From NCBI RefSeq assembly GCF_001898805.1, contig NZ_MKVJ01000017.1, positions 290,066 to 354,065 on the forward strand: a stretch of DNA of 64,000 bases. The letters are read 5' to 3'. The notes beneath the pieces are model-generated. The model saw only the letters and a program-made list of their open reading frames with translations, was not told where the DNA came from and did no database searches. The position numbers were made by a program, and so were the translations under genes. This DNA is from Leifsonia sp. 71-9. Its GTDB lineage: Bacteria > Actinomycetota > Actinomycetes > Actinomycetales > Microbacteriaceae. Positions 3,683-36,470 of the stretch are shown here, one piece after another (positions within the stretch are counted from its first letter, which is position 1; every line of letters starts with the position of its first letter).

Positions 3683-3821
3683 GCCGACGATTCTGCGCCC
3701 GGCCACCGACATCCGTGGAAGCGACGGCGGGGTGTCGCCGATCGGATCCGTCTCGCGGAGGACCTCCGGGGTGGTACGACGGTCCGACGACAGCGGGCGC
3801 GCCGCCGCGTAGCGTCTTTGC

Positions 3822-4037
3822 ATGCGCATCGTCTACGACCCGGAACTGGATGTGGCGCACCTCCTGTTCGACGAGGGCGCGGCCGTCGCACCCGTGCGAG
3901 GCGAGGTCTCGGGCGTCCCGGCGGGCGGCTACGTCGACGCCGAGTACGACGCGGAGGGGCGCCTGGTCGGCCTCGAGGTGCTCGGCGCCCAGCGCGTGCT
4001 GCCGCCGGAGGTGCTCGCCGGCGCGGAACCGGCCTGA
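3822..4037 (+). CDS. DUF2283 domain protein
   Basis: A 71-residue protein beginning MRIVYDPELDVAHLLFDEG and containing VDAEYDAEGRLVGLEVLGA, the two strands-plus-loop pattern of DUF2283. No function is established; relatives sometimes lie near toxin-antitoxin genes, but nothing of that kind is adjacent. TAGCGT lies exactly 6 bases before the ATG, and there is no Shine-Dalgarno sequence, suggesting leaderless expression. Confidence 0.75.
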   Translation: MRIVYDPELDVAHLLFDEGAAVAPVRGEVSGVPAGGYVDAEYDAEGRLVGLEVLGAQRVLPPEVLAGAEPA

Positions 4038-4063
4038 GCGGGCGCTCGCTCCCCTCCGCAGCG

Positions 4064-4080
4064 TTCTGCTCTGAGCAGAA
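4064..4080. promoter_or_regulatory. Perfect 8-1-8 palindrome upstream of clgR
   Basis: TTCTGCTC, one base, GAGCAGAA, a perfect inverted repeat 40 bases before the presumed transcription start of the XRE regulator gene. No T-run follows, so it is a better operator than terminator candidate. A TTCTGC half-site with its complement also occurs in the clpP upstream dyad at 5122-5151. Confidence 0.5.
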
Positions 4081-4131
4081 TCTCCGCATCGCCCTGGTCC
4101 GGATCCGGGCGTCGCGGCTTAGGCTTGCGCC

Positions 4132-4515
4132 ATGCTTCTGCGGCACGCTCTCGGGTCCGTGCTCCGCCGGATACGGACGGAGCAGGGGACGACGCTGCGC
4201 CAGCTCTCCGAGACTTCGCGGGTGAGCATCCCGTACCTCTCCGAGATCGAGCGGGGCCGCAAGGAGGCGTCGTCCGAGATCCTCGCGGCGCTGTGCCGCG
4301 TGCTGGAGGTGCCGGAGGGCGAGCTGCTGACCCGCGTCGCCGCCGAGTTCGCGGGCGCGCAGGCCGCATCGCCCGCCGCCGCCTCCGCGGCCCAGGTCCT
4401 GAGCCTCGTGCCCGAGCGGGAGGCGGCGGGGCCGGCCGCGACCTCCATCGCCGCCGCACCCGAGCCCGTCCCCGCGACCGAGTCGGCCCCCGCCGCGCTC
4501 CTGCTCGTCGCCTGA
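4132..4515 (+). CDS. clgR: XRE-family regulator, ClgR-like
   Basis: A 127-residue protein with a Cro/C1 helix-turn-helix at about residues 8-65 ([19 protein letters not shown], then [20 protein letters not shown], then [13 protein letters not shown]). This is the ClgR pattern, an activator of clp protease genes in Corynebacterium and Streptomyces. The remaining 60 residues are an Ala/Pro/Glu-rich tail ending LLLVA; hydrophobic C-termini of this kind are often protease degrons, which would suit a regulator removed by ClpP. A TAGGCT hexamer ends 6 bases before the ATG, so the message may be leaderless. clpP converges 3 bases downstream. Confidence 0.75.
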
Positions 4516-4518
4516 GCG

Positions 4519-5088
4519 TCAGGCGCGCAGCGCGCCGGTCGTGCCGACCACGGCATCCACGAACCCGTAGTCGAGCGCCTCGTCCGCGGTGAACCAGCGG
4601 TCGCGGTCGCCGTCCTCGACGATCTGCTCGACCGTCCGGCCCGTCTGCTCGCTCGTCAGCTGCGCCATCCTCCGCTTGAAGTGGAGGATCTGGTTGGCCT
4701 GGGTCTGGATGTCGGCGCTGGTGCCGCCGAAGCCGCCGTGCGGCTGGTGCATCACCACGGACGCGTTCGGCAGGGCGTAGCGCTTGCCCTTCGCGCCCGA
4801 GGAGAGCAGGAACTGCCCCATGGAGGCGGCGAAGCCCAGCGCCACGGTGGCGACGTCGGCGCGCACGAAGTTCATCGTGTCGTAGACGGCGAACCCCGCG
4901 GTGATCGAGCCGCCGGGGGAGTTGATGTAGAGGTAGATGTCCTTGTCCGAGGCGATGGAGTCCAGCAGCAGGAGCCGGGCGCAGACCTCGTTGGCGGTCT
5001 CGTCGGTCACCTCGCTGCCGAGGAAGACGATGCGTTCTTCCAGCAGGCGCTGGACCGGGGAGTTCATGTCGGTGTCCATGGGCCCCAT
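4519..5088 (-). CDS. clpP: ATP-dependent Clp protease proteolytic subunit
   Basis: About 189 residues, near the usual ClpP length. Catalytic serine 89 sits in GFAASMGQ, histidine 114 in VVMHQPHGG and aspartate 163 in the DRDRW segment, giving a complete Ser-His-Asp triad. There is no propeptide-like extension. It is a lone clpP, not the usual clpP1-clpP2 tandem, so it may be an accessory paralogue. The first ATG is at 5088; the ATG at 5079 (MDTDMNSP) has CAGGAT 7 bases upstream and may be the real, leaderless start. A long dyad lies upstream at 5122-5151. Confidence 0.92.
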
Positions 5089-10104: not shown

Positions 10105-10200
10105 CGCATCCCTTCCGCGGTTCCGTGGGGTCGCGACCTGGCGCGCGACCGGTCGGCCGGTGACCGACAGCACGAGTCTAGTGGCGGAGCCTGTCGCGAA

Positions 10201-10214
10201 TGCAAGCGCTTCCA
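10201..10214. promoter_or_regulatory. LacI-type operator upstream of the glucosidase regulator
   Basis: TGCAAGCGCTTCCA is symmetric around a central CG except at one base pair, the classic LacI-family operator form. It is placed in the promoter region of the minus-strand lacI-GH13 operon. The match to this particular repressor is inferred from position. Confidence 0.7.
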
Positions 10215-10248
10215 GTGAGGGGGCTGGACGCTGTCGCCGGTTGCGGCG

Positions 10249-11127
10249 TCAGCTGCGCCAGTGCGACGGACGGCTGAGCCCGGCCGGGAGCAGCGTGCTC
10301 GCGTCGCCGGTCGCCGCGTTCACCTGGGTCTGCGTGACGAAGAGGGCGTCGCGCAGGTCGGCGCCGTGCACCCGCGCGTCGCGCAGGTCGGCGCCGAGCA
10401 GCTCGGCGAACGAGAGGTCGGCGTCGCGGAGGTCGGCCGCGATGAGCAGGGCGCCGCGCAGTTCGGCGGCGCGCAGGTCCGCACCGCGGAGGTCGGCGCC
10501 CAGGAGGTCGGCGCCGGGGCGCAGGCGGGTCGCGGCGACGCGCGGTTTGCGGGCGGCGGCCTTCTGGTCGCGACGGAGGCCGGAGGAGCGGGTCGCCGCC
10601 TCCCGGGTCAGGCGGGCGGCCTCCCGGAGCAGGTCGGCGGCCGGGGCCCGAAGCGCGTCGACGTCGAGGGCGCGGATGCGATCCGCGGTATCGTCGGCGG
10701 CGGCGCGCACGGCCTGCTCTGCGGCGCGGAGGCGGGGGTGGAGGCGGTCGGCGGCGGGCAGGCGCAGCGCCTCCCGCAGGTACCAGAGGAGTTCGTGCAG
10801 CTGGCGGACGATCGGGAAGACCGCGAACATCCCGTCGCGCGTGGCACCGCCGTCGTGCCAGGTCGCGCCGCCGAAGGTGTGCTGCGTGACGTGCTGGCCG
10901 GCGCCGAAGCAGTCGAACACCGTGCAGCCCTTGAAGCCGCGGTCGCGCAGCTGCGGGTGGATGCGGCAGAGGAAGCCGTCGTCGAGGTTGACGCACGGGT
11001 CGCCGGCCGCCTTGTCGAACGCGAAGTCGGCCGACTTCGCGAACGCCAGCGCCACGCAGCACAGGCCCGCGCAGTTCGCGCAGTCGGCCGCGAGCGAGGG
11101 AAGCGAGGGGAGGGCGGCGACGTCCAT
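10249..11127 (-). CDS. Pentapeptide-repeat protein with N-terminal cysteine cluster
   Basis: A 292-residue protein. The N-terminal part carries CANCAGLCC (about residues 17-25) plus further cysteines in CVNLDDGFLCRIH and GCTVFDCFG, resembling metal-cluster proteins of the YkgJ type. A helical middle follows. Residues about 205-270 are pentapeptide repeats of the A(D/E)LxxA form (GADLLGADLRGADLRAAELR), which fold as a right-handed beta helix. Role unknown; the same domain pair occurs in other actinobacteria. Start ATG 11127 has both GGAGGG and a TACGCT hexamer 6 bases upstream. Confidence 0.85.
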   Translation of the reverse strand: MDVAALPSLPSLAADCANCAGLCCVALAFAKSADFAFDKAAGDPCVNLDDGFLCRIHPQLRDRGFKGCTVFDCFGAGQHVTQHTFGGATWHDGGATRDGMFAVFPIVRQLHELLWYLREALRLPAADRLHPRLRAAEQAVRAAADDTADRIRALDVDALRAPAADLLREAARLTREAATRSSGLRRDQKAAARKPRVAATRLRPGADLLGADLRGADLRAAELRGALLIAADLRDADLSFAELLGADLRDARVHGADLRDALFVTQTQVNAATGDASTLLPAGLSRPSHWRS

Positions 11128-11262
11128 CCCTCCAGCGTACGGCTCTCCACAGCGCGGGGCCGCGCGTAACCTTTCCACATCTTCAGCGCCTCCCGGAATT
11201 TCGCCCGGCCCGCCGCGTTACCGTCAAAGGACCGACACGCACACGAAACCGGAGACATCTCA

Positions 11263-12219
11263 ATGACCGCACCCCGTCGCACCATCGGCAGCTCCGACCT
11301 CGAGGTCTTCCCCCTCTCGCTGGGTGGGAACGTCTTCGGCTGGACCGCCGATCGGGACACCTCCTTCGACGTGCTCGACGCGTACACCGCCGCGGGCGGC
11401 AACTTCGTCGACACCGCCGACGGCTACTCCGCGTGGGTGCCGGGCAACACGGGAGGCGACTCCGAGCGCATCCTGGGCCAGTGGTTCGACGCCCGCGGCA
11501 ACCGCGACGACGTCGTGCTCGCGACGAAGGTCAGCCAGCACCCCGACTTCAAGGGGCTCGCGGCCGACAACATCCGCCGTGCCGCCGACGCCTCGCTCGA
11601 GCGCCTCGGCAGCGAGTACATCGACCTCTACTACGCGCACTTCGACGACGAGACCGTCCCGTTGGAGGAGACCGTCGCCGCTCTGTCGGGCCTCGTCGAC
11701 GCGGGCAAGGTCCGCTACATCGGCATCTCGAACTACAGCCCCGAGCGCATCGAGGAGTGGTTCCGCATCACCGAGGCCGAGGGCCTCCACCGCGCCGTCG
11801 CCCTGCAGCCGCACTACAACCTGGTGGAGCGCTCCTACGAGCAGAAGTTCCGTCCGATCGCGGAGCGCGAGAACCTCGGCGTCTTCCCGTACTTCGCGCT
11901 CGCCGCGGGCTTCCTCACCGGCAAGTACCGCGACGGCGTGACCGTCGACAGCGCCCGCGCCGCCGGCGCCGCCAAGTACCTCGACGAGACCGGTCGCGCC
12001 GTCCTGAGCGCTCTCGACGAGGTCGCGGCCGCGCACGACGCCTCGGTCGCGTCGGTCTCGCTCGCCTGGCTCGCCGCCCAGCCGACCGTCACCGCGCCGA
12101 TCGCCAGCGCCCGCACGCTCGACCAGCTCCCGGACCTCCTCGCGTCCGTCTCGCTGGAGCTCACCCCCGCAGAGCTGGACGCCCTCGACGGCGCCTCGGA
12201 GGCAGCGCGGGCCGCCTGA
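11263..12219 (+). CDS. Aldo/keto reductase
   Basis: A 318-residue NADPH-dependent oxidoreductase of the TIM-barrel AKR superfamily. Visible features: GNVFGWTAD near the N-terminus, FVDTADGYSAW with the active-site Asp and Tyr, the conserved lysine in LATKVS, and YYAHFDDETVPLEE with the active-site His. The coenzyme end PIASARTLDQL is present. Substrate unknown. It stands alone, starting ATG 11263 after a 135-base gap from the divergent pentapeptide gene. Confidence 0.92.
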   Translation: MTAPRRTIGSSDLEVFPLSLGGNVFGWTADRDTSFDVLDAYTAAGGNFVDTADGYSAWVPGNTGGDSERILGQWFDARGNRDDVVLATKVSQHPDFKGLAADNIRRAADASLERLGSEYIDLYYAHFDDETVPLEETVAALSGLVDAGKVRYIGISNYSPERIEEWFRITEAEGLHRAVALQPHYNLVERSYEQKFRPIAERENLGVFPYFALAAGFLTGKYRDGVTVDSARAAGAAKYLDETGRAVLSALDEVAAAHDASVASVSLAWLAAQPTVTAPIASARTLDQLPDLLASVSLELTPAELDALDGASEAARAA

Positions 12220-34893: not shown

Positions 34894-35304
34894 CTAGAGG
34901 CGTGCCGGCGCCGCTCGTCGCCTGTTCGCGGTGAGACGGATCGCGCAGTGCAGATACGCGGCAGCGATCACCAGGGACACGAGAGCACTCGCCCACACAG
35001 CCAGGGGCGGCTGCTCTGCCAGGACGGACAGGGAACCGATCGTCTGCACGAAGAACCAGGCCGAGAGGACGAAACCGGCCGGTGCATCGGCCGTCACGCG
35101 CCACCACGTTCGTGGGGCGTCGGACTCGTTCTCGCCACGAAACATCCGCGTGAGAACCAGCACCATGACCAGGATGATCGCGCTGCTCGCGACGACACCC
35201 CACCCGGCCCGCGCGATGGGCTCGACGGCGATGCCTGCGAGGACCGCCAGCGCGTACCCGATCAGGATCAGGATCGCTTTGGTCGCACCGTTGCGGACTC
35301 GCAT
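34894..35304 (-). CDS. Small four-helix membrane protein, possible immunity protein
   Basis: A 136-residue protein I do not recognise. Four hydrophobic segments lie at about 9-29, 35-52, 74-95 and 98-120, with a basic C-terminus (RLTANRRRAAPARL). It starts 4 bases after the stop of the secreted protein gene, so the two are certainly cotranscribed. Its base composition is visibly less G/C-rich than the flanking genes. A small membrane protein tied to a secreted one fits an immunity or export role, but that is an inference. Confidence 0.7.
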   Translation of the reverse strand: MRVRNGATKAILILIGYALAVLAGIAVEPIARAGWGVVASSAIILVMVLVLTRMFRGENESDAPRTWWRVTADAPAGFVLSAWFFVQTIGSLSVLAEQPPLAVWASALVSLVIAAAYLHCAIRLTANRRRAAPARL

Positions 35305-35308
35305 GGGG

Positions 35309-36229
35309 TCAGCTCACGACCGCGTACTCGTAGTAGTTGCAGTAGGTGAAGCCGCAGTTGTAGAAGGTCGCCTTGACGCGCTTCTGTTGGTAATGGGCGC
35401 TGCTGACAGCGTCGCGAAGCCGCGCACCTCCTGGGCACAAGAGAGTGGTCATGTAGTTGAGTCCGGGGATGAGGTTACAGATCGCGCCCATCGTCTGGTA
35501 GGTGTTCCACATCCGCTCGACGTCCGCCCGCGAGTACGTGTATGTCGTCGTGACGACTGAGGGGTCGGCGACGACGGGGAAGGCGGATCCGGCGTCGAAA
35601 TCGACAACCTGAGTCAACGTGCTGCCCGACGCCTCGTAGTGCGTGGGGATCGTGTTCCCTCGCGAATCTCTTGCCCATGGCGCGGCGATCTCCGCAACGA
35701 ATGAACTGTCGGAGTTGGCAGCGGTCACCGACCCATCGGCGTTCACTCTCAGATTCGTGCCGCCGTTCAGCTCGATCGAGTACGTGTAGGAGTGCGGGGC
35801 CGATGCGTCCTCGATGACGGTGTTGATCCGCACGCCTCCATCATCGCCGATGACCGGAACCGTGGCGGACCCGTTGTGATTGTCGAACACCACTACGCCG
35901 GGAATCGCGGAATTCAGCGCCTCACTGGCCTGCTCCGCGAAAGGAAGAGCGATTCGCAGCCGACCTTCCTCGTCGCCGATCTGGACGCCGTCCTGGGCGT
36001 CGACGGGCACGGTCATAGCCACCCCGTCCACGTACGATGCCACGGACGTCGTCGGGGATGACGACGACCCCGCCACCCCGGCGAGCGTTTCTGGTGCCAC
36101 CTGTCGGATGGCGGCGATAGCAGCCGAGATGCTCGACTCCGATGTGTCGACCGGTGCAAAAGCCGTGAGCATCCCGCCTACCGCGAACGCCCCGACCAGG
36201 AGGGTCAAGGTCTTCAGATGCCTGCGCAT
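35309..36229 (-). CDS. Secreted protein of unknown function, toxin-like layout
   Basis: A 306-residue exported protein. A signal peptide covers about residues 1-25. Residues about 70-235 form a beta-rich module with LPFAEQASEALNSAIPGVVV, VINTVIEDASAP-type strands and a closing TLTQVVDFDAGSAFPVVADP. I recall this module in many actinobacterial secreted proteins, where the part after FPVVADP varies. Here the variable end (about 236-306) has four cysteines and a hydrophobic core (GAICNLIPGLNYMTTLLCPG, then FYNCGFTYCNYYEY). AAGGAGG precedes ATG 36229. Codon use is less G/C-rich than its neighbours. The next gene, 4 bases on, is a membrane protein. Confidence 0.7.
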   Translation of the reverse strand: MRRHLKTLTLLVGAFAVGGMLTAFAPVDTSESSISAAIAAIRQVAPETLAGVAGSSSSPTTSVASYVDGVAMTVPVDAQDGVQIGDEEGRLRIALPFAEQASEALNSAIPGVVVFDNHNGSATVPVIGDDGGVRINTVIEDASAPHSYTYSIELNGGTNLRVNADGSVTAANSDSSFVAEIAAPWARDSRGNTIPTHYEASGSTLTQVVDFDAGSAFPVVADPSVVTTTYTYSRADVERMWNTYQTMGAICNLIPGLNYMTTLLCPGGARLRDAVSSAHYQQKRVKATFYNCGFTYCNYYEYAVVS

Positions 36230-36470
36230 AGTCGGCCTCCTTGTTCACCTTTGAACAGAAGTCGCTCGATCGCCGACGGCCCCGTCGAGCGACTGCCGAC
36301 AGCTTCATGCGATCCCTGTGTCCGGTCCGTTGGACCGGTGCCCAAAGCGTAGAGAGAGCGCCCGCTACCGGCTACAGCTCATGCCGGGATTACGTACACA
36401 TAGTCGGAAACTTCAGCCTCCGAACACCCCAGCATCAGTAGCCCCCGTGCCGCACGGGTGGGCGCGCAAG
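36230..36470. promoter_or_regulatory. Upstream region of the secreted-protein gene
   Basis: A non-coding, lower-GC stretch. GTTCA-CCTT-TGAAC (36243-36256), an inverted repeat, sits just upstream of the AAGGAGG ribosome site and could be an operator or a small hairpin. I see no tRNA, riboswitch-like fold or gene in the remainder. Confidence 0.4.

Follow-up and report, generated by a model that had tools for sequence, protein, structure and literature searches.

The window analysed here, i.e. the whole stretch of 64,000 nucleotides, from a genome of 4.48 Mb, contains a gene for a small, apparently secreted protein that is immediately followed by a gene for a small membrane protein, and the question raised by this locus is what the two products do together. 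The sequence-only reading of the stretch had seen in them a possible polymorphic toxin with its immunity protein. Our comparisons support the polymorphic-toxin reading, with toxicity and immunity being what we infer beyond it. We consider the best explanation to be that the pair specifies a secreted modular antibacterial effector, that is, a bacteriocin or polymorphic toxin, together with its immunity gene (probability about 0.77). A shared front, swapped tails and, behind most of these, a small partner gene together make up the genomic pattern by which antibacterial toxins with matching self-protection are recognised, here on the plan of closticin 574.

The gene pair and its products

Both ORFs were found where that reading had placed them, on the same (minus) strand and separated by 4 nt (Table 1). 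The N-terminus of the secreted protein is hydrophobic in the manner of a signal peptide (about 2.1 in the best 14-residue hydropathy window), in agreement with the earlier call, and its module does end in FPVVADP, the final residue of which is 223. The tail beyond this point had been put at about 70 residues and is in fact 83 residues long; the four cysteines ascribed to it are present at residues 251, 265, 292 and 297 of the secreted protein. The hydrophobic core also attributed to this tail does not amount to a transmembrane segment, the maximum 19-residue mean being 1.19. Four hydropathy peaks (19-residue windows from residues 10, 33, 78 and 100) bear out the description of the downstream product as a four-helix membrane protein of 136 residues, whose family displays a motif of about RxFRG..E....RPWWRxT. 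Neither the secreted nor the membrane protein gave a significant match to Pfam or NCBIfam.

Table 1. Features of the gene pair and its surroundings, in coordinates of the window
Feature	Position	Strand	Remarks
Secreted modular precursor, 306 aa, ATG start	35309..36229	minus	Signal-like N-terminus, variable linker, shared module and 83-residue tail
Signal-peptide-like hydrophobic N-terminus, about residues 1-26	36152..36229	minus	From hydropathy only
N-terminal module common to the relatives (about residues 70-223), beta-rich by prediction, FPVVADP at its end	35561..36022	minus	
Asp222-Pro223, module/tail boundary and putative release site	35561..35566	minus	Based on conservation across the uncut alignment of 82 rows
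Variable C-terminal tail, residues 224-306 and stop, four cysteines; presumed toxin/bacteriocin	35309..35560	minus	
Four-helix membrane protein, 136 aa, ATG start; presumed immunity protein	34894..35304	minus	
Inverted repeat CCGGTCC-N3-GGACCGG, 5' of the operon; candidate control site	36322..36338	.	Single copy within the window

The observation that both genes are less rich in G+C than their neighbours was confirmed, with values of 63.1% for the secreted gene (59.1% in its tail part) and 67.6% for the membrane gene as against 68.4–75.6% in six neighbouring genes. For the membrane gene the gap to the nearest neighbour (68.4%) is small, but it is clear in GC3, which is 0.825 for this gene and 0.805 for the secreted gene, and ranges from 0.931 to 0.960 in the neighbouring genes. 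In comparison with Leifsonia aquatica H1aii the dN/dS was 0.17 for the secreted protein and 0.26 for the membrane protein; by this measure both ORFs behave as real genes. The sequence TACGCTTTGGGCACCGGTC, which lies beside the inverted repeat, is common to the L. aquatica locus (L192), where the full repeat is absent.

The shared module and its exchangeable tails

The sequence-only reading had described the N-terminal module as occurring in many actinobacterial secreted proteins with varying tails. Searches of the family genomes, in which up to 7 candidates per genome were scored for the module and all match counts are lower bounds, recovered relatives of the module in at least 65 of 299 genomes, the window's own genome included. 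From these places, with the 10 weakest of those listed left out, 80 regions were fetched, and together with the window they gave 82 module ORFs, the starts of which were picked by a heuristic. Two of these (L038 and L043) have fewer than 30 residues past the cut and were dropped from the tail counts. The remaining 80 tails, all of at least 30 residues, fell into 13 BLAST groups, some of which join unrelated tails via a short linker, and tail lengths on the module run from about 45 to 168 residues. Among 2731 pairs of loci with similar modules, similar tails were observed in 245. Full-length matching in a single frame is confined to the window protein and that of one congener (L034), i.e. 2 of the 82 module ORFs, and the case that had been named as refuting the earlier reading, namely conservation of the whole 306-residue protein as one family, is thus absent.

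The position of the break between the conserved and the variable part was clear from a query with the full protein. Considering its 85 best matches (3 tail-only ORFs included), 53 stop at residues 220–232 and 24 at residues 233–260; 7 end beyond residue 260, three of them being the tail-only ORFs, and 1 ends earlier. Asp222 and Pro223 are conserved in at least 90% of the rows of the uncut 82-row alignment, which is the fair measure, given that the 74-row module alignment was cut at Asp-Pro, so that its invariance at this point follows in part from the cutting. At the level of the phylum, matches to the module profile came from 32 of 396 genomes; some of these matches are embedded in far larger ORFs, and some precede tails of closticin-like appearance by eye. 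A large actinobacterial frame of 929 aa (L166, 1252–3561) has the module near its end and then a tail that by eye is also closticin-like. The module sisters furthermore include a product annotated as TNT-domain in a Rhodococcus plasmid.

Certain tails could be related to known domains, with DUF2599 detected in 16 and DUF4258 in 2 of the 82 members (E 0.1 or better). The two DUF4258 tails (L042 and L090) lie at the Pfam cut-off, with 25.3 and 24.9 bits against 25, and tails of this type show a weak match to Colicin E5 (E 0.13). We take DUF4258 to be a toxin domain, and the DUF4258-type tails on the module presumably resemble ribonuclease toxins. Among the DUF2599 examples, L050 and L084 score slightly under the Pfam cut-off. 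The DUF2599 tails on the module have a lipoprotein-like or membrane ORF behind them, which suggests an antibacterial effector role for this domain. In the tail of L101 an HNH-like HHTMP stretch is visible by eye, and its only Pfam match is a sub-threshold one to DUF2380. Tails with four cysteines, typified by a [FY][ST][KR]xET profile, make up most of BLAST tail group 0; comparison of the window tail with this profile by hhalign, from few sequences, gave a probability of 12% (E 0.0024) over 41 columns.

Members of the family of the window tail itself were found at five loci in 4 of the 299 genomes and at a sixth in L. aquatica H1aii, the nearest named relative of this tail that was found. The scan that gave the sixth also returned the Klugiella locus, which is one of the five. 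The tail is 94% identical to the L. aquatica copy and has the lowest dN/dS of the parts measured, 0.042, as compared with 0.25 for residues 1–100 and 0.20 for residues 101–223. This bears on a reading that dispenses with a toxin, under which the first product would be a secreted protein of the cell surface or of signalling, its C-terminus being open to exchange, and the membrane protein encoded next to it would be a receptor. Such a reading accommodates a window tail devoid of any known toxin domain in Pfam and NCBIfam, and those membrane relatives that stand alone could be receptors. On the other hand, many tails are mutually dissimilar, with DUF4258-type tails among them, the window tail is strongly constrained, and the protein is built like a bacteriocin that PMC10888436 describes as antimicrobial. 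We consider the receptor reading to be highly improbable.

Structure prediction for the window tail from three sequences yielded a small, soluble-looking alpha/beta fold (pLDDT 76), and the model displayed neither a transmembrane segment nor an informative structural match. The sole pointer to the membrane is the membrane-bound partner. The tail might instead be one that acts inside cells, for instance as an enzyme, with the membrane protein stopping its entry instead of guarding a membrane target. The compact predicted fold with its four cysteines and lack of a transmembrane segment is compatible with this, as are the DUF4258-type tails, which look like ribonuclease toxins. However, those tails are accompanied by soluble partners, whereas a relative of the membrane gene lies directly downstream of the window-type tail at 6 of 6 loci, and we regard action inside the cell as unlikely, though worth keeping in sight.

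The partner genes and the membrane protein family

A small membrane gene had been predicted behind each tail. For a systematic count, a partner was defined as an ORF of 40–220 aa on the same strand, lying between −30 and +150 nt relative to the stop, with transmembrane segments called from Kyte-Doolittle windows, and 296 genes from the same loci, delineated with a home-made gene caller, served as controls. One locus at a contig end (L057) was excluded from this count, leaving 79. A partner with at least two transmembrane segments was observed at 60 of the 79 module loci as against 11 of the 296 control genes, and one with at least one segment at 72 of 79 as against 22 of 296. Removal of three near-identical loci left these proportions at 59/76 and 69/76, respectively, and the opposite strand over these stretches, used as a further control, gave 1/76. 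The prediction thus stands for the majority of the tails, but not for each of them, with 7 of the 79 loci lacking any transmembrane partner. These include the two DUF4258-tail loci (L042 and L090), in which the next gene encodes a soluble DUF2283 protein that scores above the Pfam cut-off, and two short-tail loci (L056 and L059) with a soluble ORF of 94–96 aa next; the other three (L101, L051 and L080) have no clear partner in this interval.

Tails and partners were compared pairwise over the 78 loci that offered a candidate partner; the pairs are not independent of each other. In 62 pairs both tail and partner were alike, while 2 of 2767 tail-dissimilar pairs were alike in their partners, showing that a similar partner nearly always comes with a similar tail. 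As 174 of the 236 tail-similar pairs had no partner similarity detectable by BLAST, the match is one-sided, extending from partner to tail and not in the reverse direction. Partners of similar tails are often so diverged, or so unlike, that BLAST does not match them.

These relationships argue against the possibility that the first product is indeed a toxin and the membrane protein is a helper in its export, maturation or anchoring, or the producer's own copy of the toxin's target, rather than an immunity protein. A helper of the shared module would be expected to be common to all tails; instead, the partners vary by tail type, similar partners track similar tails and not merely the shared module, and the DUF4258-type tails have DUF2283 in place of a membrane protein. 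The loci with the window-type tail point in the same direction. Of these 6 loci, 3 have a broken tail or just a remnant of one, whereas an open membrane gene is present at each of the 6. The copy on contig C20 of the window's own genome and that of Klugiella are apparently split and the third (G024) retains only a tail remnant, and all three have an open membrane gene with four hydropathy peaks. The splits may come from sequencing error. The C20 locus (L068, about 3745–4754) is a second copy of the tail, apparently in two frames, behind an unrelated short leader, and has an open membrane partner of 135 aa; we interpret it as leader exchange followed by decay.

What favours a role other than immunity is the distribution of the membrane family. 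With up to 14 candidates scored per genome, at least 68 matches were obtained from 51 of the 299 genomes, 63 of them away from a window-type tail, and there are copies in 6 of the 6 sampled genomes of the genus, the window's own included. Given that most copies stand away from the tail and that all six genus genomes carry it, the family appears to act without the toxin and may well have an independent function. A tree of 34 members, with modest support, shows the toxin-linked copies scattered rather than gathered in a single clade. Copies that stand alone could be orphan immunity genes or could serve another task. Overall, we judge the helper or target-copy reading to be quite unlikely. Two relatives of the membrane gene with no tail detected beside them occur in the window's own genome, at 4986–5399 of L124 (contig C22) and 4001–4402 of L125 (contig C2).

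Relationship to closticin 574 and polymorphic toxins

In polymorphic toxin systems the immunity gene lies directly downstream of the toxin gene. Such systems have a constant N-terminal trafficking part and interchangeable C-terminal toxins (Zhang et al. 2012, PMC3482391). The window family is comparable to them in having a conserved N-terminal part with unrelated C-terminal tails, an immunity-like gene directly downstream that goes with the tail, and, on two of the sisters, a DUF4258 domain scoring at the cut-off, although the window tail itself contains no recognised toxin domain. It differs from them in its small precursors with a signal-like N-terminus, its tails of about 45–168 residues and the small membrane-type ORF behind most of them. 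A word search of the available text of Zhang et al. 2012 (PMC3482391) did not find 'closticin'.

The connection with closticin came from a search of proteins in phage records, which recovered the module in Paenibacillus phage BN12 and Microbacterium phage Min1. The BN12 gene (L193, 2594–3630) is annotated as 'putative closticin', and its module match has an E of 1e-14. It specifies an 82-residue tail and is followed 14 nt later by a 120-aa ORF with three hydropathy peaks. Among the set of 80 tails, that of BN12 resembles the tails of L083, L067 and L104 (E 1e-4 to 2e-3), and the window tail is absent from its matches up to E 10. With no match between the two tails, we class the window protein as sharing the closticin architecture only, and not as a closticin.

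According to PMC10888436, closticin 574 of Clostridium tyrobutyricum is made as a 309-residue precursor that is secreted and cut to 82 residues. These sizes are close to the 306 and 83 residues of the window protein and its tail, and the latter protein likewise would have a signal peptide, as judged from hydropathy. The same text reports that a closticin-like peptide of B. altitudinis made in a cell-free system was inactive on two indicators, and by our reading of its primers the predicted mature Bacillus peptide starts with Pro, as a cut at Asp-Pro would give. The likeness to closticin 574 would thus run through the phage annotation and the described architecture, via homology of the window module to the BN12 protein. 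The differences are that the window tail belongs to another family, that the window host is an actinobacterium, and that a membrane gene follows in the window whereas the part of PMC10888436 available mentions no linked immunity gene for closticin 574. The passages on the protease-activated antimicrobial peptide of Propionibacterium jensenii and on propionicin F also present a peptide processed from a larger protein, as we propose here, but no shared module with swapped tails was seen in them, unlike in the window family.

Returning to the toxin–immunity reading, we propose that the precursor would be exported by its signal peptide, and that the module would serve for export and as a holding pro-part up to the conserved Asp-Pro. 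By analogy with closticin 574, a cut at or near Asp-Pro would release the 83-residue tail, which would probably be disulphide-bonded through its four cysteines. Given the membrane-bound nature of the partner, the released tail may attack related bacteria via a target located in or on the cell membrane, and the four-helix protein encoded 4 nt downstream, probably in the same transcript, would protect the producer. It appears to us slightly better than an even chance that a single pro-module with Asp-Pro at its end serves widely as an export-and-release cassette for interchangeable antibacterial tails in Actinomycetota, Bacillota and phages, with the DUF2599, four-cysteine and window tails being unrecognised bacteriocins that each have an immunity protein.

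Polymorphic toxins and closticin 574 were already known, and to our knowledge the latter would be the only characterised product of such a cassette. We met no joining of the two, and no account of the window tail or of the membrane family, in the openly licensed texts searched. If the above proposal is correct, the module with its Asp-Pro would furnish a sequence handle for finding many unrecognised actinobacterial bacteriocins and their immunity genes, DUF2599, along with many small secreted and membrane genes that lack a name, would be offered a function, and a lone clostridial bacteriocin would find its place in a family extending across phyla and phages. The toxin/partner pairs are small enough for one-by-one testing.

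Beyond BN12, the Min1 gene (L194, 2369–3476) has a tail of the four-cysteine type and is followed 7 nt later by a 61-aa ORF with one hydropathy peak. An IMG/VR contig (L196, about 10108–11684) displays the same plan, with a 162-aa ORF having five peaks 26 nt downstream. These phage genes, each combining module and tail with a small hydrophobic ORF, are possibly phage-borne bacteriocins.
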